This document shows, piece by piece, positions 3,097 to 61,200 of a stretch of DNA of 64,000 nucleotides (its first letter is position 1; each line of letters starts with the position of its first letter). Source of the DNA: Amyelois transitella. Lineage: Eukaryota; Arthropoda; Insecta; Lepidoptera; Pyralidae. Below the pieces are notes generated by a model. That model had not been told where the DNA came from. It saw only the letters and a list, made by a program, of their open reading frames with translations, and did no database searches. The position numbers were made by a program, and so were the translations under genes. Location: NCBI RefSeq assembly GCF_032362555.1, contig NC_083522.1:6302001-6366000 (forward strand), read 5' to 3'.

Positions 3097-6000
3097 CCGG
3101 TATCTGCTGGTCGGGGATGGAGCGCGGCGGGCGTTGCAGTTCGGTGGTGGCGCTGCGCGTGGGCCGCGCGGAGTGCTGCGCGGGCGCCGCTCGCTCGCCC
3201 GCCGCTTGGAGCCCGCGCGATCTCGACAGTGGCGAGATCTTCTTCTACAAGGCGCTTTCTGGAGGCGTGCCGTGTACAGCATGCGCTGGTTAGATAAGCT
3301 TAATTTAAAAAAAAAATCAAGTGCTTAGCAGGCCACGTGCATTGTAGGAGCCCATATAGGACGATGGTAACTAAGGAAATATTATTTTCAATCAAATTTG
3401 TATGAAATTTTACTTTTCCGAGTACATTTTATAAAGTTCACAAAAGTTACATGTTATTCAGCTCTTATAGTTTTCCTTTAAACTTTATTATATATACTGT
3501 GGCTGTAATTATAATACTTCTAAAAGTGATGTCCTCCTTTATGAAGAGGTCTCCAGGTCACAACATTACCCAGACATTATTTCAATTACTATCCATGGCT
3601 TATAGTATTTATACTTTTCTAGCGCAATATGTGCTACAACCAAAGGCATTATGTAAAAAAGGTACAGTCGTAAAACAAAAGATAAGGACATTGAAACGAA
3701 ATTGAGGTACATTACGTAAGGAAGTGATACGGTTAGAATACAGTGTAATCCATATTAAAGCATGCAGTGTTAGACAAACTGATAAATCGTCATAACAATC
3801 AAGCCAGGGCATCGACCGATAAATGAACGCTGTGAAATCAAGAGAAATGTTTGGCACACTGACAAAAATGTGATTTTAAAGAATACCTACACAAATAATT
3901 TAGTTTTTCTTGGACTAGTCAAATTTTACAACAATATACTTGGTTCTCTTTACAAATATGGTGTTTCATAAGCATTTTTAAAGGACTGATGAAATGAAAT
4001 TAATCTCAGTATAATTTTATACATATCCCAGCCCAGATTCTTGGCAGAAAAATTTTACTTCCAATACTCAGACCGATCAGCTCAACCAATTTATATGGAG
4101 GATTAAAAGTTTTTGTTAACTTACGAATAACAAATCACCTGTTTTTAAACGGTCAAAGAACTAATGACAAGAACTGAACCCATTATACAATAAACGCAGA
4201 ATCAGTCAAAAATTAACAAACGTACCACATGTACTTGTTACGGAGTAAACAGAGTCAAAACTCTCGCAAAGACTGAAAGGGCACGTTCAGGCCAGTTGTA
4301 TGTCTTAATGATAGAATTGAGATGGAAATAGTTCCAAAGTTGGACCACCGCCCAAACGAAGAATCCCAAGATTAATAGTAGGTATATCCCTTAGTCGCCT
4401 ATTATTATCATCCATGGGGTGAGGGTGAGTGATTTTGTTCTAAAGTGTCGGAAACCATACCGCAAAATTTACAAACTTTTCAACAATCAACAATGAGACG
4501 GAAATAGCGTACAAAATGAAATTCATTGGAACCTATTCTCAAACCAAATCTTCACTAATATTTGTGTTTGTGCGTCAAAAGGAAAATCCGTATTGAATTC
4601 ACCTGAAGCTATTGAGGCTTGTGCCAAGATGCATCGGGAGCTGCGAAATTTAACGTGAAATTGGAACAGAATTTTACGTAGGCAGCCGGAATTTCTGCAC
4701 ACAAATATAACAGTACCGTTTGTTTGCTATGCATGAATGAATTCGTCCACATGAGATTCGCAAACATGCGTTGTTTACTAAAATTGTGGAAAAAAAGTAT
4801 AAAAATAATGTGATGCACAAGTGAAAAAGAAGCGACGCAGATATTCGTTTGTAGCAAGAATGAATAAGTTACCTTAGAAATAAAATGTCATGATAGAATA
4901 GAATGACATAAGGAGAGATAGAGTTATTCTATTGTATTCTCTGCGTAAGCACATCCCAAACTGCCTTGGTAGTGACGTGCATTCCACAAAGATAAATAAA
5001 TAGTACCTAGTTACCCTGAACTTTCCTAAACTTATGAATTTAACTAGTAATCAATCATGAATTTCTTACACACAATACGCCTCTTTCCCTGAGACAAAAG
5101 CAGAGACTATACATCTCACTTGCAACTATTCTTACATACTACTTACTTATTTGATCAAAGTATGTAAGTTTGTCAAGGCCTTCCCTTCTAATGATTCCAT
5201 TTACATCAAAAGTTTATCAACTTTTTAATTTCTTTCAATAGAATCTTGCGCCGGGGTATCGTGTGGCTCCGGCCGGCGGTGCGTAGTCCGGGGCGGTCGA
5301 GCGCGGTGCGTGTGCGCAGCGGCGTGCCGCCGTGTGGGTTCCGTGTGCGGCACCGACGGCAAGACCTACCCGTCTCTCTGTCGTCTCCGACGGCGGGCCT
5401 GCCGGAGACCGGCCAAACATCTCAGCATGGACTACCCTGGACCGTGTCAAGGTTTGACATAGATCTTTATAATGTATGTACGTCTTCTATTCTTGAAGGC
5501 TTCCGTGGCGCAGCGGTAGTCCCGGTTTCGAATCTCGGCCGGAACATGATGAGAAACGAACTTTTTCTAATTGGTCTGGGTCTTGGATGTGTATCTTTAT
5601 AAGTTTTTTTTTTAAATAAAGTATCTCGAAATATGAGACTCGAGACTAAGGTAGAGATTTGGTTATGGACCTGTCTCCTTTTTCGGTCATTTATGCATCG
5701 CGCACGCGCGGCTCTGTTTTTATCACGCAAAAAACTAGCTGTTTCGCTTTTTAATATGACGTGGAACGGGCCAAAAATAATGGGGTCTGGAGAAAATTAT
5801 ACTATTATCTTTTCTTCGTGCTGTTGTTCGTTTATTAGCCAACGTATGGAATTAAATTGAACTTACTGTTACCACCATGAGGTCTCTTTTACTGCCGCAA
5901 GCAGAGTGTGAACTTAATCATATAAGACTATTTTATTTTATAAGTAAGCCCACTTACTGTATTTCTTACTAAATATATATAGAGATACTGCCGATAAAAC

Positions 6001-12000: not shown

Positions 12001-15000
12001 CGGGCCCTGCCGGCGGCTTCGATTTAGACGTGATAAATTCCCTGTAATCTAAACCTAAACGCAGGCACTTGATCGCTGTCTAGACTAGACTAACGTCGCT
12101 CTTTAAAACCGCAATACGATACAATCGGGAAAAGCGTTGGATATTTACAAGCCTCGCTGGACAAAATAATGAGGAAGCAGAAGTATATCCTTTATTCAAA
12201 GCAAGGTATTCAAAAGTTTCCTAAAAAAAATTAACCGTTATAAAATCCCAAGAGAACTCGTTCATAATATTTACAAGTTAAAATGTTTTAGACCTTTATT
12301 TTCGTTAATTAATTACTTATTTGAGAATAAACTGAGCTGAAGAGATATTTTTTTGGGGAGAAATAACGCAATGAAAAATGATAATTCAAATAACTGAAGA
12401 CAGAAGATAATATGCATATTAAATAATAATGACCTAGCTGATTTCAATTAATCATATTTTGTTTATTAGGGGGCTCTCGTCCAATCGAATACATATGCGG
12501 CACGAGGTGTCGTTTCTATGCCCACCATAATTTTTTCTAGCTGCTTGTTTGTCTGATTTCTACTCCGTTATTATGTTACATTAGGCCTCGTATTTCCTAT
12601 TTTACAGCCACGCCGTGTCAGTAAACTTTTTATCTGGCTCGAAGGACCAGCTATTATCGTTATTATAGGCGTTACGGTAACTTTATAGCGACTTTATTGC
12701 TTTGTCTATAGTAACTAAGTAGGGTTTCACACGCCCTACTATCTATTGGCAAATAAAAAGGCATTTTGAAATTATTGCATAATAGGTATCTTAGCGACAC
12801 AGACATAGTTGCTAATATGCATCGGTATCGTTAATATCAGAGTTAATCTGCAGTTAATCTCATTTAGTTGCGGTACTTTAATTAGTAACGGTCATTTCAA
12901 TATAGCTCCATGGCTTACTACATTCTCATAACTTTTAAGTAATGGTACAAGCAGTTATTTAAATGAAAACTTACCTCACTGGAACAATTATATCAACTGG
13001 CTTGTGTCCCGGAGCTCTATTATATTCTCATAACACAGGGGTTACTGTGTTCTGTGGTTACAATCAGGTAGGCAGTACCGGACACTCTGTACTTGTGTAT
13101 GCAATATGCATGCAAGTTTACTATGATTGTGTCGCACTTGTATAAAAAAGACACCCAATGTTTCATTCGATACAATGTTAGCAGAATTACAGCTGTGTGT
13201 TACATACACACAGCTGTAATTCTGCTAACATTGTTTGTAAAAGCTAGTACTTTTCTATTTAAAAACATTGTTTTCAGAGGGTAGCTGCGATCTAGTCCGT
13301 TGCGGCGGCGAGAAACGCTGCGTGTTAGACGCTGAGCTGGGCGCACATTGCGTGCGCTGCGGCTCCTGTAACGTCGCCGGCGCACCCGTCTGTGCTGTTG
13401 ATGGCAAGACGTATGCGGGCGCCTGCGCGCTCAGGAATGCCGCCTGTGAACGCGGCAAGGCGTTGCCGCTGGCCTATAGAGGGTCTTGCATTGGTGAGTT
13501 TTCAAAATTAAATTAAAAATTTATAATAGTTGTAATGGGACATTTCAACAATACTTACAATAATTGTCATATATTTTGGTTTTTACAACATTGGTTGAGA
13601 TCAAATAAATTACTTAAAACTAAGTTTACCAACTGCCGCTTCCGTTACTTGCGTCAGTGCAGAAGAAGCAGTAACAAACTGCACTGCAGAATTTCTTCAA
13701 TAACGTCATCTTCACAATTATCCAAACGTAGAATAGAAATGTGGACGAGAGAATACATTGTTATAATTAATTAGTTTATATGAAATTTAGATAATAAAAA
13801 ATATAATTTTAATTTCGAAACTTTTTTTCACATTTTTAATCATTTTTGTGGCAACGTTACATTTCTGGCTCCTTTGTATTTTTGTTTACTTTGTTTAACC
13901 AAGTTTTTATTTATGATCCGCGGTATCATGACCTCGTGACATTGCTTTGTCATTAATCTAGAATTCAATTCAAAATTTCAGCTCAATCCAACAACAGGTC
14001 AAATTATGACTTGCAACATTTGATTGCAGACAGGTTGAACTAAATAAAAGATCGCAAATAATAGTATGACGTAGCTCAGGAAAAAAGACGGCGCAAAAGA
14101 GAATAATTGAAACAAAATAGTAAAAATCCTTGAGTATTCGGCTACTGGACATTGATATGCCAATCATATGATCAACTTTATAACGTTAATCACAGTTGCG
14201 TCCTCACCTCTCTGAAAAAGAGCCCGGGGTGCGCCTATGACCATGGTCCTGGACCGGGTAAATAGGGTTTTTTCACGAAGCGTCCTCCATCTGACTTCCA
14301 CCACCTCCACAGGGAAACCTTATCCATATTGGATAATGGTTACAGATCCAATTAAATTAATGTGCAGGTTTATTCCGGGTTCTTTTCCCACGCTGTAAGA
14401 GCATTGGTTAGCAAATAAACCAATATACATAGAAATTTTATTTACCTACGCTTGATTTGATCTTTCCCAGCGAACGCGACATGCGCATCTATAACTTGCG
14501 GTGCCGGCCAGCGCTGCGTCGCTGGCGGCGCTAGTGGGGCGCGGTGCGTGTCTTGTGGATCTTGCGGTGGGGGAGCACGACGGCAGCTGTGTGGCACTGA
14601 CTCGAGGACGTATTCCTCATGGTGCCGCCTACAGAGAGCAGCGTGCCACGCCGGGAGGGTAGTGGATCCGTTACACCCTGGACCTTGCAAAGGTAACATT
14701 CTAAAAGTTGATATCAGAGCGCGCGGTCACTGTTTTGTGGCTCTTGCAGGGCCACGAAGGCAGCTCTGTCCAAGTCAAGGACGTACTCATCATGGTGCCG
14801 GCTGCAGAGAGCGGCATGCTACGCAGGGAGGGTAGTTGAGTCCCACCCTGACCTTGCGTGTGTTCTAGAACTTACTAGAGATTAATAAATGAACGCGTGG
14901 GGCGTGTATTTTGAAGAAGGCACGACAGCAGCTGTTTGGGGACAAGTTTAGGCTATAAAGCGTAGCTACGCAACAACACGGAGAAAAAAAAGTGCACCTG

Positions 15001-17645: not shown

Positions 17646-19309
17646 ACGTCATCATTTTCACATTTAAAATACCCTCAAAAACTACGTCACACGCTTTATT
17701 AAAGACCAATACTACAAAAAGAAATTAAAACTTAACATGTAAATAAATGTCTGAAAATAACTTATTTTTCTAGTATCAAGATCAAGTACAGAGTTGTCGA
17801 GATCGCTCAGCTGAATGAATTGTGTCGTTGACCTCTGAATCTTACGCGTCGCTTTTCCGCCGGCTGGGGTGATATGACGTATTAAGGATCGTGGATTTTG
17901 ATACTTTTTTTTTTTTGTACTTTCTGAAATATGAACCGATATTTTTCTTTTAACGTTTTTAAATATCCTTTAGATGAGTACACTAACAGTTAAATTTATG
18001 CAGTTGAATTAAAAGTCACCTTGTATAAGATATTCCGTTTTTAAACAAAAAAGTTTTGCTTATAGCACACTCCAGCCAATCCACTCATTACTTATTTCAT
18101 AACTTATAAAATAGCATTTTCAAAATTACCTATAGTTTATTTTTCTGTCTTAACGATTATTAGCCATATGCTTGGTAAAGGCTTTTTATTTCGGCAGAAA
18201 AAAATTGAACTGTCTGTTCTGTTATTTTTTTTTAAATAACTCTTCCAAAAGTTTGAAGGTGGTCATGATGTTTTATTCGGATCTACAGTTAACTATTATA
18301 GAATTCTCTATAGTTCCTTTGTATAGGTACTCATAAAGGTAAACAATTTGGATAGATCTCTTTGTCGAAAAATAAATTTCTAAAATTATTTATGGTTAAT
18401 AGTAAAAGTTATTCATTGGAATTGTTATTTAATTTTGATTTATCTTTTCATTGTGATAAATTAATTTATGTAAATGTATTTTTCAACAAAACTACGTATT
18501 GTTTGCCTTTACTGTACAACTGAAACTGCCGAACCGAAAGTCTACTACCTACTTATTGGAATGTTTTTTTCAGTTTCAGTTTGAACTTAACATGACAAAA
18601 AAACAGGAAAGTACAAAATAAATGTTTATTTTCATATCATATCTGATCTAACACTTTTATGTGAATTTTGTATATACATTTTATTATTGACAGAAGATTA
18701 TTTGGACTATGTAACATATTAACCTTTAAATTTTTGAGCAAAAGTACGCTGGATGTAACAAGGAAGTTGATTATAGCGCTGGTGTTTGTATGAACATCCA
18801 CAGAATTAATATTACACATAATAAAAATCCATGTATCAATCCATTTAAGGCTGTTATTAAAAAAAATATTAATAAGTAATAATAAAAAAGTAAACAAGAA
18901 GTGCCCTTGTACAAAGCTTTTCTTAAGTCTAAGGTCTTGTTGTATTTTTTCCTTGATGTACATAAATAAATTAAAATAAAAAAAATAAAGAATTAGTCAT
19001 TTTCCAAAATCGATATATTGCAACACTACAACAAATGTCAATTTTATTACCCAAGACGCTCTTTGTTTCAACGAAGGTGCTATGCATCTCTACAAAATTT
19101 TGAGTCATTTTGTATTCTATAGCCCAGCGTACTTATATTCTCTGCATAACATATATCAATGGAATACTATTTTATTGCATATTACAAAATTTGTTCATAT
19201 GAATAAACAATATACAGCAAAATCGATACACACTTCACTCGACATAAGTATAAAAGTCCACAATTTTTAATGCATTTTTTCTTGCGAATACTATAAAAGA
19301 CCATTTATC

Positions 19310-19500
19310 TATTTAGAACCTTAACATTTTATGTGTTTGTTGCTACATAGTAGTTAGTCCTTGTGAAGAGTTCTGCTAGTTCTTCTACTAGCTACTTAGG
19401 CGACTTAGAAACACTACTATAAATCTATGGTGTAGTAGATTCAGTTCTAAATCTTTAATTTTTTTTTTGTGTTCCATTTGTAGCTATAGATAAAAAGTCC
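19310..19500 (-). pseudogene. Broken tandem copy A of the Mad1 last exon
   Basis: On the minus strand it follows the real exon through 'gatttagaactgaat', 'caccatagat', 'gtgtttctaagt' and 'gaactcttcacaaggact', ending at the same 'ctatgtagcaa' position. An insertion with stops interrupts it. The 3' flank ('tataaaagaccatttat') also matches the real exon's flank, so a unit of about 250 bp was duplicated. Confidence 0.7.
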
Positions 19501-19552
19501 ACAAAACATTGTTTTTGTGCATTGGAAAGCAACATCTTCATAAGACACCTTA

Positions 19553-19735
19553 TTACCTATTTAGAACCTTTAGAGTCTTTTGCAACATAGTATTCATTTT
19601 GAAAAGTTCAACAGTGAGGGCACTTAGGAACACTGCTAAAGATCTGTGGTGTTGGAGATTTAGTTCTAAATCTGTCATTCGCTTTATGGTATTATGTATT
19701 CCATTTTTAGTCGTCGACACAATATATTTTTTTGA
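19553..19735 (-). pseudogene. Tandem copy B of the Mad1 last exon, frame still open
   Basis: The minus-strand frame reads MTDLELNLQHHRSLAVFLSA then LTVELF..NTM, against TDLVELHLHHHRSIPVFLSA then LTMELF..TTM in the real exon. The 61-codon frame has no internal stop. The left part of the exon (CDEDIEM region) is lost or rearranged, and no matching phase-2 acceptor is obvious, so I treat it as a decayed copy rather than an alternative exon. Confidence 0.7.
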
Positions 19736-19818
19736 CACATCAATTTTCTTATTTATATATCGTCTTACGAGAATTATAAAAGACTACTTATTTCCTATTA
19801 CTCATAACCAGATAACGT

Positions 19819-22800
19819 CTAATTTAACTGAGTTTCTTGCTGCATAGTAGTCCTGGTGAAGAGTTCCATAGTAAGGGCACTAAGGAACACTGGTATAGAT
19901 CTATGGTGGTGAAGGTGTAACTCTACGAGATCTGTGAGGGTGGCCGAATAGTCTGTATGCACCATTTCTATGTCTTCGTCACACAGGTTGAACGACAAGT
20001 ATTCTTCTGACGATTCCGCGTACATGTTTGATATTCTGTGGGTAGAAAAATGTTTGTTAGGACAATTTCTTTTTTTTTTCGCAGCTTTTTACAAAAGTAG
20101 AATACATAAAAATCATGGATGTTCTATAGAGACACGGTGTGATTCATATGAGCAGTGTATTTTTTATACACAAAATCGAGGTCTAAATATGAGAAGGATC
20201 TAATATTTCACGACTGGTGAAAAACCGTGCATTTGCAAATAAATCGACATTTTTGGTCAAATTAAATGCATAAAAAATGTATAACAAGCGTGCACGTTGT
20301 TCCATCAGTTTGAGAACCAAATAAAATTAATAATAACCATGCAGCAAAAATAACCCAAGAGTATTTCTTAGAAAAATATTTTATTCAAATGAAATATAGT
20401 CAACTTACTTATAGTTCTTGTGTCCAGTTCTATCAATTTTATAACCTAATAGCATGTATACGACATTCCGATACTCCTGCGCAGAGGACGTAAATTCTTC
20501 TTTCATTCTAAAAAAAATAATAATATTGACTTTACTAGGAAAAAATTTAAATGCCTTAAATAGAATGATACGTCCCAAATCTCAAGATTGAGCTTCATCA
20601 GAATATATAGAATAAGCCTTGAATGTTGAAGACGAGAATATATGTATGTGTGTTTGTATGATTCGTTCGTATCTTAATAGTTTCGGAGCAATCATAAAAC
20701 TCTTCTTGTGGCTCTGCACTCAAAATCCCGACCTTTGCTGTGGGAATTTCCAATAATTCTCTGAAAATTCATATTTATACCCAAGACTCACCAATGAACA
20801 TAGATATTCCATCGTAGCTTTCTGCGCCATTGACAGACAACACACAGCCGTAACTATATGTAATTGACTAGCTATGCGCGGGTCTAAGCTCCCGTGGAAA
20901 AATCCAGAAGGTCTATTCTTTATCTGTGCTTAATTTCGTTAATATCAATTCAAAGTTTATTAGTTACGATCATACAAAAATACAAATCTTTACGCTTTAT
21001 TAATAGTGCGGATAAGTACCGTGAGGTAGGATCGGATCTCCACACTACATGCCCTTATAAAGTCACAAGTTATCTAATAAACAGCACATACCTTTTTAGT
21101 TTGATCCGGCTATTCTCTAGCTGTTGTTTCATTTGCTGCAACTCCTCAGGGTCGGTGTGAGATCCGCCCTCGCGCAGTAACGCCTTCAGCCTTTTTATCT
21201 GCGTCAGAATAAATTGTTTTAAATATTTTAACGTTCAGTTTTATATAAAATACTGTTGTGCACTAAATAGACAGAAAAATAAAGTATAAAATGAAAATGA
21301 ATGGTTGGATAAGTGTGATTAAATTTCAAAAGTCTATCAACTAAGCAATATTGATAAAATATCTTCAGTGCAAATACATCGGATTGAACGTATTTTTATC
21401 ACACAATATATGTACTTGATAAGATGTCAATAATTCAGCAAACGTAATAAAAATAAATTGAATACTAACCTCTTCCTGAGCATTGTCTAAATCTAACTGG
21501 AACTGTTTCTGCGCAGCCGCTGCAGGATTTTCAGTTAAGTGAAGCACCTGCAAATTTAATCAAGAGAAGGGCTTACAAACTTGGTATTGTTATTTTAGGC
21601 CATTGTCTAGTAACTCTCACTATCTGAATCTCAATTCAATTATTAAGCCTGATCGACAACTCTTGTATCAGGATATAATATTTTATTCTTCGGCTTTCAC
21701 CCCATGTTCCTTGGGAAAAGTTGTTTGATTTCATGGGCCGATTTTATCCTATCCGAATTGGTACCACCTTTCCGTTACACCCTGTATGTATCATCATCAT
21801 TTTAGCCTGTTTTTTAAGTATGTATTTGTATGCATAGACTTACACAAAAAAAGGCGGACGGAATGTAGCTTGAATTAATGTGAAGCATTGTAATGGCGGC
21901 GTTGTTCGCATGTACGAGTGACGTTTCGTGAGATAATCTTCGACGCATCTTTGACGTACACAATAGCGGCCGACTATCAAACTATTGGTGAGAGTGTTTT
22001 TTTTTTTATGTAAAAACTTATTACTTTATATTATAAATTTTTAATTGTTGCCTGAACGGCTTTACAACTTAACCGGACTTTTTAGTGGCGGGGCCTGAAG
22101 GGCCTCCTGCCGACGCAGTGGCTGCTAAAAGGGTTCCCAAAGTGGGACAAACCTCGGCTTTGACGCAACCCGAGTAGGTTGAACCTAGTGTTCAACTGCC
22201 ATAAGGGCCTGACTAAGTGGCGGATCCACCGGGGGCCGCCGCGGGGCGGTACCTAGTGAACTGGCGACTATTCCTACTTCTTCGCGTTCGCCGGCGAACG
22301 CGGTGTATGTACGCGAGAATGTCGGCACGGTGCCTCTGCTGGGACGGTAGGGGGTCTGAGGGGGGGACGGCGGCCGTAATGGGGTCGTCCGGATCGGTGA
22401 GGTGAGAGTGGATACGTGAGGCGTGTATATATAGAGTGGTGCATACTATTGGTGCTTCTTCTTGGTGTATAGTAAAACTCCGTCCGCCTCTATTTCTTCA
22501 CGTATGCATGTACGTGCCTACCTTAGTGAGCGGCTGGCGGTCGATGCGCTCGAGCTGCGCCTGCAGCGCGTCCCGCTGCGCGCGCAGCTTGCCCGCGTCG
22601 CGCCGCAGCGACTCCGCCTCCGACCGCCATTTGCTCACTTCGCTACGAAGGCCTTCCACCACTACGACAAGGAAAAATAAATTATTTTATTTTTAAAACA
22701 TAACATGAACACCATCTTTACATACATATAATAAAACAGTAAACGATCAATGTCTGTGTTGCCCAAAAATCGATATGGGGGATCTATAAACCTAGGTATG

Positions 22801-25800
22801 ATTTTTTCATCAGCCAGTATGTTTGTGTCTAGTACACAAACATACTAACATTACGCGAAAGTAATTACCCCTATCTTAATACGGTTTTCTAAGATGTGCT
22901 TCGCTTAGTTCAACTTAAACACTGGCAATACATTTAAAAAAACATAATAAATATAACTCGCTCTTATCTTGCCGCTGCGTGGCCCAAAGATCTCAATAAA
23001 ATAGCAAAAATTTCTGCAATTCGGCAACATTAGTTACAGTTACGTCGTTCAACAATATAATGTTATTGGACTGTTTTCAGGGGCTTCGCTATCGTGGAAT
23101 CCCAATATTATAAATATTATATGTATAGATGCGAAAGAAAGATATGACAATTATTAAGTATTGTTGAAGTCAATATCCCAAAATTTTGAATTTTTTAGTT
23201 TGTCTGTTTCCTTTTTACGCGTTATCTTCATATCGAAAGTCCCGATGCATTTGCAAAAACCCTGTATTCTTTTGTAAGTGGCGCGCGGACGGGTAAAAGC
23301 TAGTTGTTCACAAAAAATCTCTTTATAATATTATCTTTGAAGTATTTACTCTTGGCTTGCCCCTGTGTATCCTGCGTGGCCAGTAGGTCGCGGTAAGACT
23401 GCAAAGACTTCTCGAGTTGTGCTACTCTAGTGGACAGTAAGGTGGCTCTGTCCGTCCCTGGCTCGCCCGACATCGTCACTGTCAGTTCCTTTTCGTAACA
23501 GTCTAGTTGTTGTCTGAAAAAACATATGTAATTCAATTCAAAATCTTCATACCATAACTTTATAATAGAAGTTAGATATATTGTGTCACGGGCTTTTTTA
23601 TAGATCTTTTAATAACCCATATTTTTGTTATACATTATATGCGTATATAATTAACCATGTGGCCAGCACACGCTGTAGAAGGATTTTTTTGCTGCTTTTT
23701 TTCCAGATTATAAATATTTATTTATTTATCTGAAATCTAATATAATTTGTAAGTTGTTGTATAACCCTTATGAATAATGGAACTTTCTAATGATGAAGAT
23801 TTTTTAAATCAGTGAGTCACAGTAGTTATTTAGTTTATTGGTTACAAACATACAAAAATATAAATTTTTCTCTTTATTAATACTGTGGATTAGGTATCTA
23901 AGAAAGATAATTACTACTATGTAACTTTCAAAAATTTACCTATAGCTATCTCTTTCCCTCGTAACGAGCAATAGCCTCTTCTGCAGCCTATGTATATGTG
24001 TCTCCTGGTTTTTCTTAACCGTCATCAAGTCTTCCAGCTTCGAAGTGGCCTTGTCACGTTCGAACTTCAATGTAGCTAATTCCTAAAAGAAACATATACA
24101 ATATTAATAACTAGCCTTTACCCGCAGCTTCGCCCGCGAAAATTTAGCACCACTTATATATAATACAGGTTCTTCGCAAATCCCACAGGAACCGGAATAA
24201 AAAGTACGCTATGTCTTTCGCAGACTCACGTATAATTTCAAAAATTACAGAAAATCGTGAGTCTTGGGTTGCGTCGTGGCCTCTCTGGAGAAGCCCGGGG
24301 TGGACCACGATCCTGGATTAGAGAAGTCAAGTTTTACATATAGCGTCTCCCGCCGTATGTTCTCCGATATATTTACGAGTGCATCCAAAATTTGATACTA
24401 TCACTGAGATGTCACAACTGGGATAAGCCAAGCGGATGAAAAGTACTCTGGCCATCCTGTATGATTTAAACGTGTCATTAATGTACATGTGTACCCGAAA
24501 CCGCCGAGCTTGCATGAAGAGAGTTATGAATGTGGATGAAGCGAAGCAAGTATGCAGAGATCGTGGCAAGTAGAAAGAGGTAGTCTCTGCCTACCCTCCG
24601 TGAAAGAGGTGTGATTTAATGTAATGTAATGTACTCCATACCTCATTGTTCTGCGCCAGCTGCGAGTGCGCCTGCGAGCAGCTCTCGGCGGAGGCGAGCT
24701 GGCCGGTGAGCGCGGCGTCCAGCGCGGCGCCCAGCGCGCGCGCCTGCTCCACGCCGTGCCCGCGGGCCGCCGCCTTCCACTCTTCCAGGGAAGCCTCAAG
24801 GTTTGCTATTTTCACCTGCAATTATATTGTTATGAACGAAACTGTATCTATAAACAGAAGATATCAGTTGCTATGAAAGCGTAGCCAAATTTCAGGCTTC
24901 CTGTGCCTTTTGATGCCGGTTGTATGTTGTAGTGAGCACATTCAGTAAAGCAAGAGTAAGTAAGAGTACTTAATTAAAAAACGTTAGAAATATTTTGACG
25001 TCAACCAATGTTGTTAAACCATACATTTTGACAATTATTAAGCGATACGAAGTATCCTATAATAATGAATAAAAAAAAATTTTGCATTTGAATTGAATTT
25101 TATTTATATTATAAAGAGAAAAAAAACATGTTTGTTACAAGTAAAAAATTAAAATAAATCTGTACTTTAATTTAAAACTATAGGAGTAACATAATTAATT
25201 TGTGGAAATTTCCATGAAAACAAACCAAAAGAAATTTTTTTAATAAAAGGAGACTCAACAAAGCCTAATGATATGTGTTAAGCACGTATCATTACACTTT
25301 GTTGCCATGCAAAGACGGTTTATTATCATCAACCTTTTAAAAGAAATGATGGAATTAATCACCTTAGCTTTATGCAGTTCCTGTTGCACCGGTTGCAATG
25401 CCTCGACCCTATTGGTCAGCACGTGCACCTGCTCCTCCAATAACAACTTGTTGCCCACCGCGTCACGTAAACCTCTCTCGTTGGCCCGGAGTCTCGTTAC
25501 CTCCTTCTCTAGTTCCGCCATATTGGATAGACGCTTCTGGGCTGTCTGTGAATGAAAATTGGATAAACTAATTCAAATATCTGTTTATTATAGAAATTTA
25601 CCTTTCGTGAATGATTGCCACTAGGCAGCAGCACTTTCATCAGCTTGTTATCATAAAAATATTACTGATTTCTGATATAATTCCAAAACATATCTGGAAA
25701 ATCTTGTTTTGCTGAGTCCAGATAAAAGTGGCAGAAAGAAATATCCTTGCAGTTATCAGGATTCCTTGTTAATCATAATGTATGATGCGTAAATCCGATT

Positions 25801-33401: not shown

Positions 33402-33552
33402 CAATAGATTCTTTCTCCACATTGGTCACTTATTATCGCTTGCACCTCAGCAACTTCCGGACAGACTGAATAAGCCTAGCCTTGACGCTCAGCGAGCGGT
33501 TGTAGTGGAGTGTCGTCAACAACCTCGCGAGGAACATGTGCTAGATGGAAAC
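33402..33552 (-). pseudogene. Tandem copy of the Grip75 last exon
   Basis: The minus-strand frame reads MFLARLLTTLHYNRSLS then KARLIQSVRKLLRC and a stop, against VFLARLLMRLDYNRWLS then EAMLTQSVTNMLRC in the real exon (33669-33831). The frame is kept without indels. The 5' third of the exon is absent, and the nearby CTAG acceptor would join in the wrong phase, so it is not a usable alternative exon. Flanking 'ttcttttgacacc' sequence is shared too, indicating a tandem duplication of roughly 250 bp. Confidence 0.75.
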
Positions 33553-33668: not shown

Positions 33669-36600
33669 CTAGCATCTCAGCATATTGGTGACAGACTGAG
33701 TGAGCATGGCCTCTCCGCTCAGCCAGCGGTTGTAGTCGAGTCTCATCAACAGCCGCGCGAGGAACACGCCGCACGGACGGTCGCGCAGAGACACCAACAG
33801 CTGCATCAGTTGCTTTACTAGTTTGTTGAACCTGCAAACATTTCGATTTGTTAGAGTTTAACATTATGTATTTTTTTTTTTATTTCCATGCAATGAGTGG
33901 CTTTTGATACTATTTTAAAAATACTTATGGTTGAATAAGAATTGACAGCCTCTGTGGCGCAGCGTACTACGCTTGTCTGTGACACCGAAGGTCCCGGGTT
34001 CGAATCTCGGCCAGGGCATGATGAGAAAAGAACTTTTTCTGATTGGCCTGGGTCTTGGATGTTTATCTATATAAGTATTTATTATAAAATATAGTATCGT
34101 TGAGTTAGTATCTCGTAACACAAGGCTCGAACTTACTTCGAGGCTAACTCAATCTGTGTAATTTGTCCCGTATACATTTATTTATTAATTTAATAGATTT
34201 ACTTTAAACGAAAATGATCATTAGATTTCATTAAAATTCAAAGAAAACATGAATGAACATGACAAAGGCTGGTTTAATTTTTACCAACGCACAATCGCAT
34301 GTAAATGATAAAGCGCTGTGAAAAGTTTAAAGGAAGTCTGCCTACCTATCCGAATAACCTCTTAGGTGGTATTCCTCAGCATCTCTGTCAGCCTCGAAGT
34401 CCGTGATGCTGCAGAACGAGTGGCACAGTTTGAGGAGCTCCATGATGTTGCAGAACACCGGGTTGTTGATGTAGTCTGTGGCGTCGCCTGAACAGTCGCT
34501 GTCTGATGACTGAAACGCGGGGGGAACTTTGCATTTTATACATACCTACATAACATCACGAGAAGCTATGAGCAATGGCTTCAGTTAATTGGCTTGACGT
34601 TGGAGACATAAGAGTAAGTTAGTGAAAGTTTATTATTATTTAAAACAAATGCAAGTGGTTATATTCTGAATTATCGGGAATCACTCGGAAGATAGTATTG
34701 TGTGTCCCGCTACAGTAGACAGAAAGATAGAAAATTTATTTTGTTCTGTTCTGTAGAAGTAAATGTCATGAATTCTTACCGGAGTAACAGTCAAAAACGA
34801 CTGACTCAACACATCAGCCAAGAAGTTAGCGTGCGCCTTCTTCAGCTTCTCAAAATCGTTGGTCTTTTGTACAGCTTCCATGAGACGTGCGAAGTTTGTT
34901 TCTAGGACGTCCGCTTGTAAGTAATGCTGGAGGTTGTCCATTAAGAACATGAGTTTGTTGTGGAGTTGGCACATTGAGAAACTGAAAATATAAATTAAAA
35001 AACTGTAGAAAATACGTTTTTTAAATGAGAAACTAAAAGCTTTACGACCTGTCACTGACCCATCTCTTATACGTTACCCTAATCATCTTCTACAGGGTAC
35101 ATTTTCATTTAGTGGTGCTATTCTTTTCTGCTGGATTATATAAAGCTAATACGTATCCATTTTAAATTTTTGTTACAGTTTATTATGACAGCATAATAAA
35201 ATATGTGGGATTGATTGAAATCGAATCCCACTGCTATCACCAATTATTAATGAAATACCGCGAGACAAGAACTGATTTAATTTGATAATACTTCTGTGGC
35301 TCGTTTGGTTTGTCACTTTATATTGATATGCCAACTGTACAGTAAAATCCCCACATTCTTCCTCGATAAATGCTAATCAGAAACATAATCACAGAGAGCC
35401 TTGTTTTAATTTAATGAGGATATTAACCTTGAAGACAGTTTATACGTCTTCCACAGCATATGCAAGTCGTGCTGCGTCTGTTTGATTCGCAACAGCAACC
35501 TGAACATGTCGTTGTACCGCGCGAGCACTTCCGGGGTGAACAACAAGTGTAGAGGCCATTTGAACTCGTACTTCAGTATTATGGTGGACCAACCGTCGGC
35601 CACTGAAAATTTGAGAAATGTATATTATTATTATTGATTGAGAAGAAATACGGAATACAAATGAGTTGAAGTAGATATGAAAGGCACAAATGAGTGAAGA
35701 TGACATCAGGACGTGGCGGGCACCAAATGGATTCTTACATTCCAAAATAGAATACAGTGGAAGGATTTGAACAAAACCTACATCAAACATTTGATTTTAA
35801 AAGACACAGAACAAAAAGCTCCATCTTTAATTTCTTATTTGTAATGTACCCATGAGCGCGAAATAACTACGTACCTTTTACGCACGTGATCGTATCCTCC
35901 TTTTTGTTAGCTGTCACGATAAGGATCCTTCACAATAAGGACCCTAACTAAAATTATGAATGTGAAAGAAGGTTTGTTTGTAACCTCTTCACATTTAAAC
36001 CATTTAACACTGCATGGAGTGTTGCATTCCTATAGTGCTGTTTGTGGGCTAGTACAATAATCAGCATTCGTATAGACACGGCAAACATTTTAGTTCTTTT
36101 TAATTTCTTACCTGTGCTGCTATCATCTTCGAATGAAGAGTTATTTGACAGATTGGGTTTCACGTACGGCAGTTCAAAGCTGAATTTCTCAATGTCAGCG
36201 CTGTTACTGAGAAGTACCGCCCTGGCTGCTAACTGGAACGCGTGGTTCATATCTGTTGTATCAAGTAGAAGGTCATAATACAGAGCCGGATTCAGTTCAA
36301 AGAACTTTTATATTAGACAGAGCCCACATACACTCATAGAATATGTGTGCAGTTAAACTGTAACTAAATAATTAAGACCTATTGTTACCATATTAAAGGA
36401 ATAAATGATTATGATTAAGAGTTACATATCTAGAAATCTTCCTGAATATGTAGGGTATTTGGAAATCACCATGGTAATAGAAATATAGTGGTGACAAGAT
36501 AATTACCCGAATATTATTATAAAAATTAAAGTAAGCATGAACATAAACTTTTTAACGTATAAATAATGCTGTAAAACAAATTATAGTATGTACCTCTTGT

Positions 36601-55212: not shown

Positions 55213-58200
55213 CTAAAGGGACGTGATATTGAAAGAGTTATTCCTCTGCCTTTTCCTCGGGCACGGATTAATTTGTATAACACTTTGCATATTAGTCCTG
55301 CTATCTTGGCTTCCCACACTAGTCGATGACGTCAGAAGAGGCGATGACGCCTCCCCACTTTTGGAATTGGTCTTTTTCATGTAGCCAATCACAGAGTTCA
55401 AAAATACAGGTGGTAACGCCACAGGAGATAGTTGCCCCGGACCTCTGGAGATGTATGTTTGTAACATCTTCTTTGACGGAGAACTCGGGTCGTTCACTTG
55501 GAGTACCACTAAGGAGCCGGCTTCGATGTTGGCGGGGATAGAAGTGCTGTTGCCCACTTGCGGGTCTATTCTGGAGATGGCCACGTCTGCGCCTTGCCTG
55601 CTCTGTGGATGTTTGGCGCTGTTCAACAGTGTCAGTGTTGCCATACTCGATTTGGGTGTTGCCGTACTTGATTTGGGTGTTGCCGTACTCGCTTTGGGTG
55701 TGGATGGTACTGTTATTGTTTCTGGAGATTTCTGTGTGTTTGTATCTGAAAATCACAAATTTATTCATAGATATATTACGTACATGTTATTAAACATATA
55801 AAATTCAAATAAAAAAATCATTATTATAGGATATCCTTTGGTGTCACAACATATCACATTTATCCCTAATGGGATGGACAGACTCAATAATCAAATTAGA
55901 TTGCGACTTCATCCATACTTTTTTACTGATACTGTTAATATGCCTTCATAACAGACACACAGATTAATAATTATTATGAAAGCATGGACAAACCGCTGGA
56001 CTGACTGATTAATTATTGTACATATTTATACAAGTTCAAGTTAAGTAGAAATTTTTCTTCTGATTAATTCAATGAGACGACGAATCTGTGGGTAGCTAGC
56101 TAAGCTAAGGTATATGTTAATCCCTTGGTACTAGACAACACTAATGAAATAGCAGTTGCGATTATAAAGATCCATGAAGAAATGCGTAGCGCGCAGAAAG
56201 TCAGGTTCAAATCCCATCTCGGCCGTGTACTGACTGTTTTCAAAGTTATGTTCATTAGTATGAAAACTAATCGATGCTCTTATGGTGAAGTAAAAACATA
56301 AAGAGGAAACCTGCACATTCAGGCAACTAGATGTGTCAGATGGGAGTTGCTACATGTAAAAACCTCACTCATCAAATTTAGCATGCATGGTCATAGGCAT
56401 AACCCAGGCTGCTCTCCAGAGAGGTAAGGATGCAACCGGGAATAATGCCAGGAAGAAAATTTTGTTTTTGGATTTTAAGTGAGAGGCTGCACTTCCTACA
56501 CAGAATTTGTCACAAATAGATTTACTACAGAAGAAGTAGTTGCGCTATTTTGCGCCATTGAATATTGTCGAGGCGACATACATATAAACGTGGTAGAAAC
56601 GTACCGTTAGTAGCAGCATCCTTATTTCGTCTTTTGCCTTGCTTCCTAGCCGCCAAGGCGCGTTCCACTAGTTCGTCGACAATATTTGTGTTCTCTTCTG
56701 TGGGGATCGCCGAAGATTCCAGCACTTTCATGCTTCGACCTAAAAAAAATATACAATCCAGAGTTCACAATACAGTAAGTAAATTTCCTTCTAAACTCGA
56801 TTATTATACAAATAGACGTAGACCATTATCATTATTTTTGTCCATTGGTTTATCTTCTTTTTGACAGCTGCCGCTGAAATCACGTTCGACGTAACTGTTT
56901 GACGTTTTGTGAAAATCATATTTATGTCTGCCTGTATATTACACTAGAACACGTTTTGGTCTTAGCAGTTTGGGCTATGCTTTTATATGTCAGTCAATCG
57001 GTCAGTCAATGTTATGCCAAAATTTAGAAGATAGTCTTATTGGCGTGACGTTTGAAGCGCTTACGCATATGTCCTCACTTGGACAGGTGATCTCAAGTGA
57101 AACAAAATTTTCTTAAGCTCCTCCATATTTTGAAAGACACTAGATGACTTGTCCTTATGATGATTACTGTAGTTCTGTATATAACATCCTCTATGTGTAG
57201 GTTAAAATTATTTGTTACAAACAGACAATAACTTAAGTAACAAGAATAGCCTCCAATCGATATCCTACTTTTTTGAAGTCAGTAAAATTTTCAAGTTCCT
57301 GAAAACCGTATCAAAATAGGTTCAGCGAAAGGCGAGATAATCGCGAGGCAAAACGCAGATGTGAAGGCGTTTAAAAATACAAATCTTTTCCCTTGGTCAC
57401 TAGTACGGCCGTAGATGCGGTACTCACTCTGGCGCGGCAGCCACTGGGCGGCGTGCGCGGCGCGCTGGCGCTCGGCGCGCCGGCGCTCGCGCAGCCGCGC
57501 GGCGTCGCGGGCGGCCGCGGCGGCTGCTTCCGCCCTTTCTTTGGTGAATTCCTCCATTAGTCTCGTCACGTCCCATCGAGTGACGGAACGGAGGGCTTTG
57601 TCCACTAGAGCGCAGTTTATTTTCTCTTCCTTTTTGAACTGTAAGTATGCAATAATGTATTTGGTTTAAATATGGTTTATATCCAAAGTTTTTATTGGTT
57701 CACTAGAACAGTAAAGTTAGAAAATTTTAGCTCTTTGTTGCATTATTTTACTATGAAGCAATTCGATCCAAACATTTGTTTTTAATACCTTTACAAGGCA
57801 ATGTATAATAAGGTATGCACTCTTAAAAAAAGAATGAAGAAGAATTTACTCACTTTCAAATACAAATCTCTTCGTTTCCGATCGGGGAACAGTGGCGCCA
57901 TCAGGCTGAAATCAGTCCCGATTGCGGCGAGCGCTCTATAAAAGCGGACAGTTTCCGCTTCGTTCCAATCGCCAGTGCGCGGCGTGCGGGTGTATCGCCC
58001 GCCTGAACCGCTCCAAGAACCTTCATGGACCACTGAAGAAAGTTTGCGCTTGCTCTCCGTTTGTTTTATTACCTATGAAAGAGAGAAAAGATAAATAAAA
58101 TGTGCAAGTGATGTGGATGTCGTAAAAGGCGACTAAGGGATAGGCTTTTATAAGCCTATCCCTTAGTCGCCTTTTATACTTGGTTAAGTTTATACTTGGG

Positions 58201-61200
58201 ATTCTTCTTTTAGGCGATGGGCTAGCAACCCGTCACTATTTGAATCTCAATTCTATCATTAAGCCAAACAGCTGAACGTGGCCTATCAGACTTTTCAAGA
58301 CTGTTGGCTCTGTCTACCCCGTAAAGGATAAAGACGTGATCATATGTGTGTATATATGTATGTATGTAAAATGTGAAAGTATTGTTAACTACTAGGCATT
58401 CAATTTCTTTAAGTGCTTTATAAAGCAAACGGTTTCAGCTTGGCCCTAATCGCTAGTTCGCGGCCTGCAAGTGACAAAATGTCTACTGGGGCTAATTTTT
58501 TTTTTCTGTGGCATGTTCATCGCGTTGCCTACTATTTTTAGATCATTTTTATTTCTTTTCTCTCCTATGCTTATTGCATCAACCTCTTTTTGTAGCATAC
58601 TTAGTCATATAGACATGTCAACACCCAATCGCAGTCAAACACGCTACGCCATCAGCCAATAGCAACGAAGAGTTTAAATCGGGTTATTACGGTTTGTATG
58701 GATTAGTTAGAGCATAAATGCAAACTTTGCTGGCGGACAAGCCGTGAAAAAACATTGCTCTAGCTTCTACTACAATAGGGTCATCTGGTTTGTTTTTGTT
58801 TTCTTTTGCTTTGTTGTTTCTGCGTATTTAGTCCTGTTTGTTTTATATCTGTGCCTAGTGCCGTGTGGTTCCCGGCACCAATGAAAAAAGAATAGGACCA
58901 CTCCATCTCTTTCCCATGGATGTCGTAAAAGGCGACTAAGGGATAGGCTTACAAAATTGGGATTCTTTTTTTAGGCGATGGGCTAGCAACCTGTCACTAT
59001 TTGAATCTCAATTCTATCATAAAGCCAAATAGCTGAACGTGGCCATTCAGTCTTTTCAAGACTGTTGGCTCTGTCTACCCCGCAAGGGATATAGACGTGA
59101 CGATATGTATGTATGTTGTTTTATATCTACACTCACCAAGCTCTGTTCGTCGATGACAATCTCTCCATTAGGGCCAAGTTTGATTTGCGGCACGGGCGCG
59201 GCTGTAGCTTCAATTTCGGGAGGGTCGTCCACTTTCTCTTCACTCTCCTTAGCTTGCCTCTCCGCCTCTTTTTCATTGGCCTCATTTGCTATGATTTCGT
59301 CTTCTGTTTGACTGAAAAAAAAAAACGATTTAATCCACATTTACAATATAAGTTTATACTATTCATAGGGATGTGACCCATATGGTATGTATGGATTAGT
59401 CTAAACCTCCTTTACAACTAGTTTCCGTCCGCATTTTCGTCTACGACAAAAAAACTTAAATGTCCTTTCTGGTACTCCTTACTACACATATTTATGCAAG
59501 GTTTCATAAAGATCGGTTCTGTGGTTTGTCTGTGAAAAAGTAACTTACAAAGAAACTTAATTTCGCATTTATAATACTAGGATTTATATTAAGAGATTAA
59601 ATTTATTTACACAAAGTAAAGTCAGTTCGCGTCACTGGAATTTCGCAAAAAGTACTACTCTACTTCATGGCAATAGTAGTAAACTAAGATACATAAATTC
59701 ATATAATCACGTCTATATCCCTTGCAGGGTAGACAGAGCCAACAGTCCTGAAAAGACTGATACAGCCACTTTCAGGTGTTTGGCTTAATGATAGAATAGA
59801 AATTTCTATAGTGACAGGTTGCTAGCCCTGCAAATTTAAAGAAAAATAGGCTCAAACGGTTCAGAAGCATGGGTGTAGTCTATGTTTAAAAGGATGCAGT
59901 TGTTTTAAATGTCACCCTGTATATACAAAAAAAAATACTCACACAATAGGATTGGTGGTGGGATTGTAGAATATGAGGTCGTACATGGTCAGTTTGTCTC
60001 TTTGTACGTTCTCGTATCGCCGCCGCATCGCCGACATCCGGCGGCTCATGTCCTGACGCCGTGATCTGTACCACAGAATAGAATAGATTTATTTTCAAAA
60101 TTGGATACAAAGTATCACTTATTGACGTCACATCACTTAAATCTTATTATAACTACTACCACTTCCAAAGCTCGCGCTTAGAAGAAGCGGCCGAACAAAC
60201 TACACTGCAGCATTTTCATCGGACGTCAATTTACAATATGTTAAACATATTAGGCATAAGACTTGAGTTCTGGGCAGGTGTCATTGGTACATGGACGCGG
60301 TAGTAATTTATTATACTAGATCATCGAAGCTCTTTACCTAGGTTTACTATTGACATTATCTACATCTCCTTCTCTCTCGTATAGATCAGGGTATGCCTCT
60401 GACTATAGACCCTGGATTGGGCGAGTCAGGCTTTTTGCAGGATCTGTCCGCCATCTGACTTCTGCAATCTTTGCCGGGGAATCTAACCTGTATTAGATTG
60501 ATCATGGTTACACACCCAGTTGCCTGAATAGGCATGTTTCGTCACGATGTTTTCCCTCACGATAAGAGCATCGGTAAGTATTCAGAATAATGTACATCAC
60601 TTCAAAAATAGTCATCGGTACATGGCCGAGGTGGTATTTGAATTTGTCTTTTATGCGCATCATGCACCTGGCACCTTACCGATTTGACCACAGACTCTTG
60701 ACAAAACATTATTACTGTGCATGTGAAATGTTAATCTTGTGACCTGGCTACAAGGAGATTCTCTTTGACTGGTGAAGTGGGCGGCGGCTGTGTGGTTAGC
60801 TGACTGACACTCGAGCAAATAGAGTCATTGCGTGTGCGGTTAATTTCTCTGTAACAAAGTAACAATATTGTATGTTTTGGCATACTATCGTTGAAGATTG
60901 ATAAAATGTTACGCAGTGTGAATGAGAATGTTTTCCTGGACAACCAGACTAATAACATGAATTTGAATCCTATTCGAATCTTGGTCCACATCTAAAGGTC
61001 TATCATGATCGAAATGGCTTGTCTGGAGCGGAAATAAAATGTTGTATGCACTATTCTACAGTCCCTGTCTTTCATAACAGATGAGTGCCAATTCATAGAA
61101 AATGTATGCAACAAATGTTTCAGTTACAGCTTTGACATTTAATATGCAGATTGAGGTTTTTAACATACTTACATACATATACTCACGTCTTTATTCTCCG

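Follow-up and report, generated by a model that had tools for sequence, protein, structure and literature searches.

A real but ordinary tandem repeat of the Mad1 exon end in Amyelois transitella, most likely a relic today

The last coding exon of Mad1, a checkpoint protein, is represented three times in tandem and in a single orientation in the stretch of 64,000 nt of Amyelois transitella contig NC_083522.1 that was analysed (hereafter the window), as the initial annotation had observed, with all pairs of copies scoring far above shuffled sequence. The array is a real but ordinary duplication of a terminal coding-exon end, and most likely a relic by now. It is considered probable (roughly 0.86) that the coding end and its 3' flank were duplicated in tandem twice, giving rise to two additional copies, here called B and A, which are probably located in the 3'UTR and are decaying. 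A local tandem duplication would have copied the last ~165 nt of the Mad1 coding sequence and ~80 nt of the 3' flank, with the left breakpoint inside the last exon, and a further duplication of the extra copy would have produced B and A. Since the copied piece would have lacked a splice acceptor and lain behind the stop codon, the Mad1 protein would have been left unchanged and the copy tolerated. Both copies would have decayed since, with A losing its frame and B remaining open by chance or under a weak constraint that was lost only lately. We infer the location in the 3'UTR, the neutrality and the order of these events. Decay had already been judged more likely than an alternative terminus, and this judgement is favoured by the tests. 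The ground given for it, the missing 5' part of B, is refined to a breakpoint that seems to fall within the exon, so that the acceptor was not copied.

The repeat array at the end of Mad1

The last Mad1 exon matches the Pfam MAD profile (PF05557) with an E value of 1.7e-19 (positions 593-661 of the 661 in the profile), as well as the C-terminal Mad1 structures PDB 7b1f/4dzo with an E value of 2.3e-10. The exon bounds previously assigned, 20035-19819, agree with the acceptor and the stop codon (Table 1). In the titles and abstract openings of the literature on Mad1 and Lepidoptera, nothing was found on the structure of this gene.

Table 1. Coordinates of the Mad1 array, the first canonical poly(A) signal beyond it, and similar exon copies
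Feature	Position	Strand	Evidence
Final Mad1 coding exon, C-terminal part of the RWD domain	19819..20035	-	Stop codon 19819-19821; acceptor CCCACAG just before 20035
Repeat unit inside the real gene: last ~165 nt coding + ~78 nt 3' flank	19741..19984 (borders approximate)	-	Homology to B from ~19984; flank matches that of A to 19741
Copy B, 5'-truncated, open frame, one codon deleted	19490..19722 (borders approximate)	-	77% over 96 nt; score 136
Copy A, 5'-truncated, interrupted, with the codon deletion of B	19245..19488 (borders approximate)	-	Scores 110 (exon), 130 (B)
First canonical AATAAA 3' of the Mad1 stop, past both copies	19171..19176	-	642 nt past the stop codon in a hexamer scan
Gamma-tubulin-complex-like (GCP-like) last exon, then a diverged open copy of its tail	33439-33536 + 33669-33766	-	79.6% over 98 nt; 3' flank in common
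Kazal-like exon, then a 5'-truncated broken copy in the next intron	14471-14693 + 14718-14857	+	74.7% over 150 nt
L007: exon-like open frame, acidic (TDLAGGPLTDNTVS), whose end recurs as a copy 295 nt downstream	2273-2337 + 2568-2632

The exon and B are spaced by 257 nt, and B and A by 219-240 nt. Gapped local alignment yielded scores of 136 (exon/B), 110 (exon/A) and 130 (B/A), compared with maxima of 41, 51 and 52, respectively, among 1000 dinucleotide shuffles of each pair. The array thus resembles the exon far better than shuffled sequence does. The exon and B share an ungapped core of 96 nt with 77% identity, and B and A one of 58 nt with 83% identity, while exon and A align with 70% identity over 108 columns, including 18 gap positions. 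The best-kept part of B spans positions 19574-19678. Its open frame (HHRSLAVFLSALTVELF) is confirmed and, compared with the exon as protein, shows 67% identity over 36 columns (E 2e-10). In a protein search of the animal's own genome B was retrieved with an E value of 3.7e-6, and its match to PF05557 (profile positions 635-661 of 661; E 0.002) scores 17.1 bits, under the curated cut-off of 30. The interruption of A is likewise borne out by insertions, frameshifts and stops in the alignment. At least two adjacent exon copies in the same orientation and above chance, which define a tandem exon duplication, are present here as partial copies, and the disabling changes that define a relic are seen in one of them, in the frameshifts and stops of A. 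An assembly artefact is not plausible as the source of the array, because the copies diverge from one another by 17-30%.

Homology to the copies starts ~52 nt into the 217-nt exon, and B therefore lacks about a quarter of the exon rather than its 5' third, as had been stated. The region from ~19990 to 19926 is weakly alike among the three (exon/B p 0.002; B/A p 0.019; exon/A p 0.28). No homology could be detected between the first 51 nt of the exon and the parts upstream of the copies (B p 0.30; A p 0.93), or between the preceding intron and the array (p 0.47). The left end of the duplication seems to fall within the exon, and a breakpoint at this position would explain why the 5' part is missing in both copies without any later loss. 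A unit that starts inside the exon would not include its acceptor, and the copies probably never had one from this source. On the other side, the 3' flank reported as common to the copies is present and makes them longer than had been indicated, reaching ~19493 for B and ~19252 for A. The flanks of the exon and A score 44, which is reached by 0/2000 shuffles, and those of B are alike at p 0.0135 (with A) and p 0.0175 (with the exon).

Both B and A have a one-codon deletion in common, and among 63 aligned sites in gap-free blocks, nine unite B and A against the exon, five are changed in B only, five in A only and one differs in all three. On the basis of the common deletion and these nine sites, B and A look more closely related to one another than either is to the exon. 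Duplication of the exon probably came first and was followed by a doubling of the additional copy. A fourth copy was not found in 18700-19250 (p 0.91 and 0.93), nor was a copy found in the intron preceding the last exon (p 0.48).

When DNA of the array was searched against the 327-Mb assembly it matched only itself, and the protein of the exon retrieved only the exon and B from the same genome; both results hold for the best candidates scored, with common words skipped; the counts are lower bounds, and a lack of matches is no proof of rarity. The suggestion of an exon fragment carried by a transposon is unsupported, a single place having been found in the assembly at these lower-bound counts, and a mobile element is disfavoured because the array occurs at one place only, within the sensitivity of the search.

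Selection on the copies and their possible use

Copy B is open over ~35 codons and free of gaps across its 96-nt core. Under neutral substitution, with indels outside the simulation, the probability that 35 codons acquire no stop is 0.54-0.77 at 0.25-0.10 substitutions per site. The pairwise dN/dS of the exon and B is 0.23 (dN 0.175, dS 0.76), and 0.18 within the segment HHRS..ELF. With branches of equal length, a dN/dS of ~0.5 would be expected between a constrained exon and a neutral copy of it; the value for the exon and B is lower than this and lower than that of the GCP-like copy described below (0.50). A three-branch codon model in which the omega of B was free gave an omega of 0.23 with 2dlnL of 3.64. 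This improvement was reached in 9/150 neutral bootstraps (5/150 with omega <1), and an omega that low was obtained in 4/150. Purifying selection on B is thus suggestive and falls below significance. The same codon test gave an omega of 0.23 for A, though this copy is visibly broken, and the log likelihood rose by 2.6 when omega was freed for both copies. The gapped part upstream of the common ACA codon was omitted from the model, and in A the stop codon was masked together with two columns in which the frame is broken. The polarised changes are alike in the two copies, with two synonymous and three non-synonymous changes found only in B and the same numbers found only in A. The low omega is read as a weak sign that there was once some constraint, or as an effect of the small sample, and not as a sign of present function.

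The initial annotation had raised the possibility of an alternative terminus, which would change checkpoint behaviour. Copy B would then serve as an alternative C-terminal exon, spliced to exon 13 or to a donor within exon 14, and would supply a variant last helix. This is highly unlikely. The open frame of B, its likeness to the exon as protein and to the MAD profile, and its weakly low omega are in keeping with such a role, but A, which has diverged to a similar degree, is broken, and neither the real acceptor nor the intron can be detected in the repeat unit. Acceptors and donors were scored on matrices derived from nine Mad1 introns picked by eye, with the exon 13 donor in phase 2. The in-frame acceptors available from exon 13 (19763, 19643 and 19622) score -0.6, -0.1 and -5.5, respectively, whereas the nine real Mad1 acceptors reach 8.7-13.2 in sample, falling to 2.3-10.5 under leave-one-out scoring. 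Even on the latter scale the in-frame acceptors into B remain under the lowest real acceptor, by a narrower margin than the in-sample scores would imply. A chimera with a donor after 19983 and an acceptor before 19632 would keep the frame, but the two sites sum to only 2.2 and the donor (-1.3) is lower than all nine left-out real donors (0.7-9.3). Among the best eight of the 93 frame-matched donor/acceptor pairs collected, one reads into B, and the remainder either run into an early stop or use an acceptor located before B. The best acceptor in the 5' 160 nt of B scores 3.5, compared with a median best score of 4.5 for 500 random stretches of the same length from the window.

Splicing that would read B in frame, whether it started at exon 13 or inside exon 14, was rejected, good signals being absent by the nine-intron matrices. 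By the same small matrices, the copies do not each possess an acceptor of their own in the right phase, as would be expected of alternative exons. Nothing in the sequence appears to favour splicing into B, and scores from matrices of this size are an indication and no proof. The proposed effect on the checkpoint is unsupported, given the weak in-frame acceptors and the fact that B corresponds to the last 27 profile positions only. Bub1, by contrast, is reported to bind the coiled coil and the beta-sheet of the head (PMC8391104).

Copies B and A probably lie within the Mad1 3'UTR, because the first canonical AATAAA comes after both of them. As non-canonical poly(A) hexamers occur nearer to the Mad1 stop in the hexamer scan, two ATTAAA among them, this placement is stated as probable only. 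A location upstream of this canonical signal would also suit a role in which B and A are kept as repeated regulatory sites of the 3'UTR, bound by RNA-binding proteins or microRNAs, and not for their protein. The 3' flank was copied along with the coding part and is clearly alike in the exon and A, as such sites would predict, but in B the flank is worse kept than the core derived from coding sequence, and a regulatory role is considered highly unlikely.

A start codon is unfavourable by the usual vertebrate and insect rule when C occupies position -3. The ATG at 19678 opens 41 codons that span the copied core, and B could be conceived as a separate ORF, translated from the 3'UTR or from a transcript of its own, whose product is a helix mimicking the C terminus of Mad1. 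This ATG has C at -3, however, and the span of the profile covered by B would be too short for an RWD fold, making this a highly unlikely role and the least probable of those considered. Decay of a duplicated exon end behind the stop codon remains the preferred reading of both copies.

Exon copies beside other genes

Comparison of the window with itself yielded eleven rows within 2 kb at an E value cut-off of 1e-4. Four of these are located at the Kazal-like exon, Mad1 (two) and the GCP-like exon; the others are an inverted pair at 52-53 kb and six rows from a repeat cluster at 58.1-61.2 kb. In the interval 58114-59828 what looks like a repeat element is clustered in both direct and inverted copies, mostly with 85-92% identity and with two short stretches of higher identity. 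Similar stretches also occur in two Mad1 introns 2.8 kb apart (20953-21021 and 23831-23899; 65% identity over 23 residues if translated), and this pair is probably an interspersed repeat.

The GCP-like assignment is derived from a PF04130 match in the neighbouring exon (E 2.7e-12), with the last exon itself at E 0.0024, below the cut-off, and its copy without a match. A 13-nt match (p 0.033) is a hint that this copy may extend nearly to the start of the exon. Farther downstream there is another weak match (score 41, p 0.008; highest shuffle 48), which may represent a third copy or be due to chance. The Kazal-like exon at 14.5 kb shares 34% identity with the Kazal exon at 13.3 kb, which matches Kazal_2 with an E value of 3.3e-11. 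No homology was found between its copy and the first 65 nt of the exon (p 0.41). Of the eight genes recognised by eye in the window, three thus have an exon with a diverged copy of part of it lying directly downstream.

When the search was extended to 264 kb (the window and 200 kb of flank), seventeen near direct pairs were found, of which seven were dropped for having more than two other copies within the 264 kb and ten were kept. Four of the latter are those of Mad1, the GCP-like exon and the Kazal-like exon, and six occur in L004, L007, L009, L012, L013 and L022. Judged by eye from open frames, the L007 pair looks like another exon end copied downstream and the L022 pair is tentatively exon-derived; the L004, L009, L012 and L013 pairs look non-coding by eye. 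A search of near pairs at the protein level added one short pair, in L018. The L013 pair (395-521 and 676-802) is a degenerate, apparently non-coding tandem duplication with 74.8% identity over 127 gap-free nt, and the L004 pair (3573-3723 and 3722-3872) is a head-to-tail duplication of 151 nt with 98.7% identity, which is probably recent.

Relation to known duplications and a possible polarity

Duplicated, non-processed pseudogene fragments decay beside their parent gene and accumulate stops and frameshifts. The Mad1 copies resemble these in decaying, with stops and frameshifts, next to the parent, but comprise part of one exon and its 3' flank and no whole gene. With the known short tandem duplications that create introns they have in common a breakpoint inside an exon. 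Those duplications crossed an intron-exon boundary and supplied the splice signals of the new intron, whereas no usable signals were found in the Mad1 array. As in tandem exon duplication, exon-derived sequence is repeated in or beside its own gene. In a survey of this phenomenon (PMC9013439), copies are also reported for UTR exons and unannotated exons, and the search extended 15% of gene length past gene ends. Measured against that account, the Mad1 unit differs in starting mid-exon without a detectable acceptor, because of which the copies could not be mutually exclusive exons as they stand.

Exon fossils may be polar, with partial tandem copies surviving mainly downstream of the intact exon and without its 5' end, which is put forward as a doubtful but possible generalisation. 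A downstream copy without an acceptor would be invisible to splicing, whereas an upstream copy with an acceptor would disrupt the gene; 5'-truncated downstream copies would survive because they have no acceptor and splicing ignores them. All near copies taken as exon-derived in the 264 kb lie downstream of their exon, namely Mad1 B and A, the GCP-like and Kazal-like copies and, tentatively, those in L007 and L022, the last two being counted by eye and on position. The rule is an idea devised after these cases had been seen and is not statistically established, and there is an ascertainment effect, in that an exon and its copy are recognisable for longer than two non-coding copies. It is not stated in the abstract openings of the exon-duplication literature searched.

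For Mad1 the array is of little consequence, and what might have passed for an alternative end of this checkpoint protein is removed. Annotators are warned that copy B should not be called an exon. Small tandem duplication over exon ends looks common in this region, and the polarity suggested here offers a simple prediction as to which copies selection spares.
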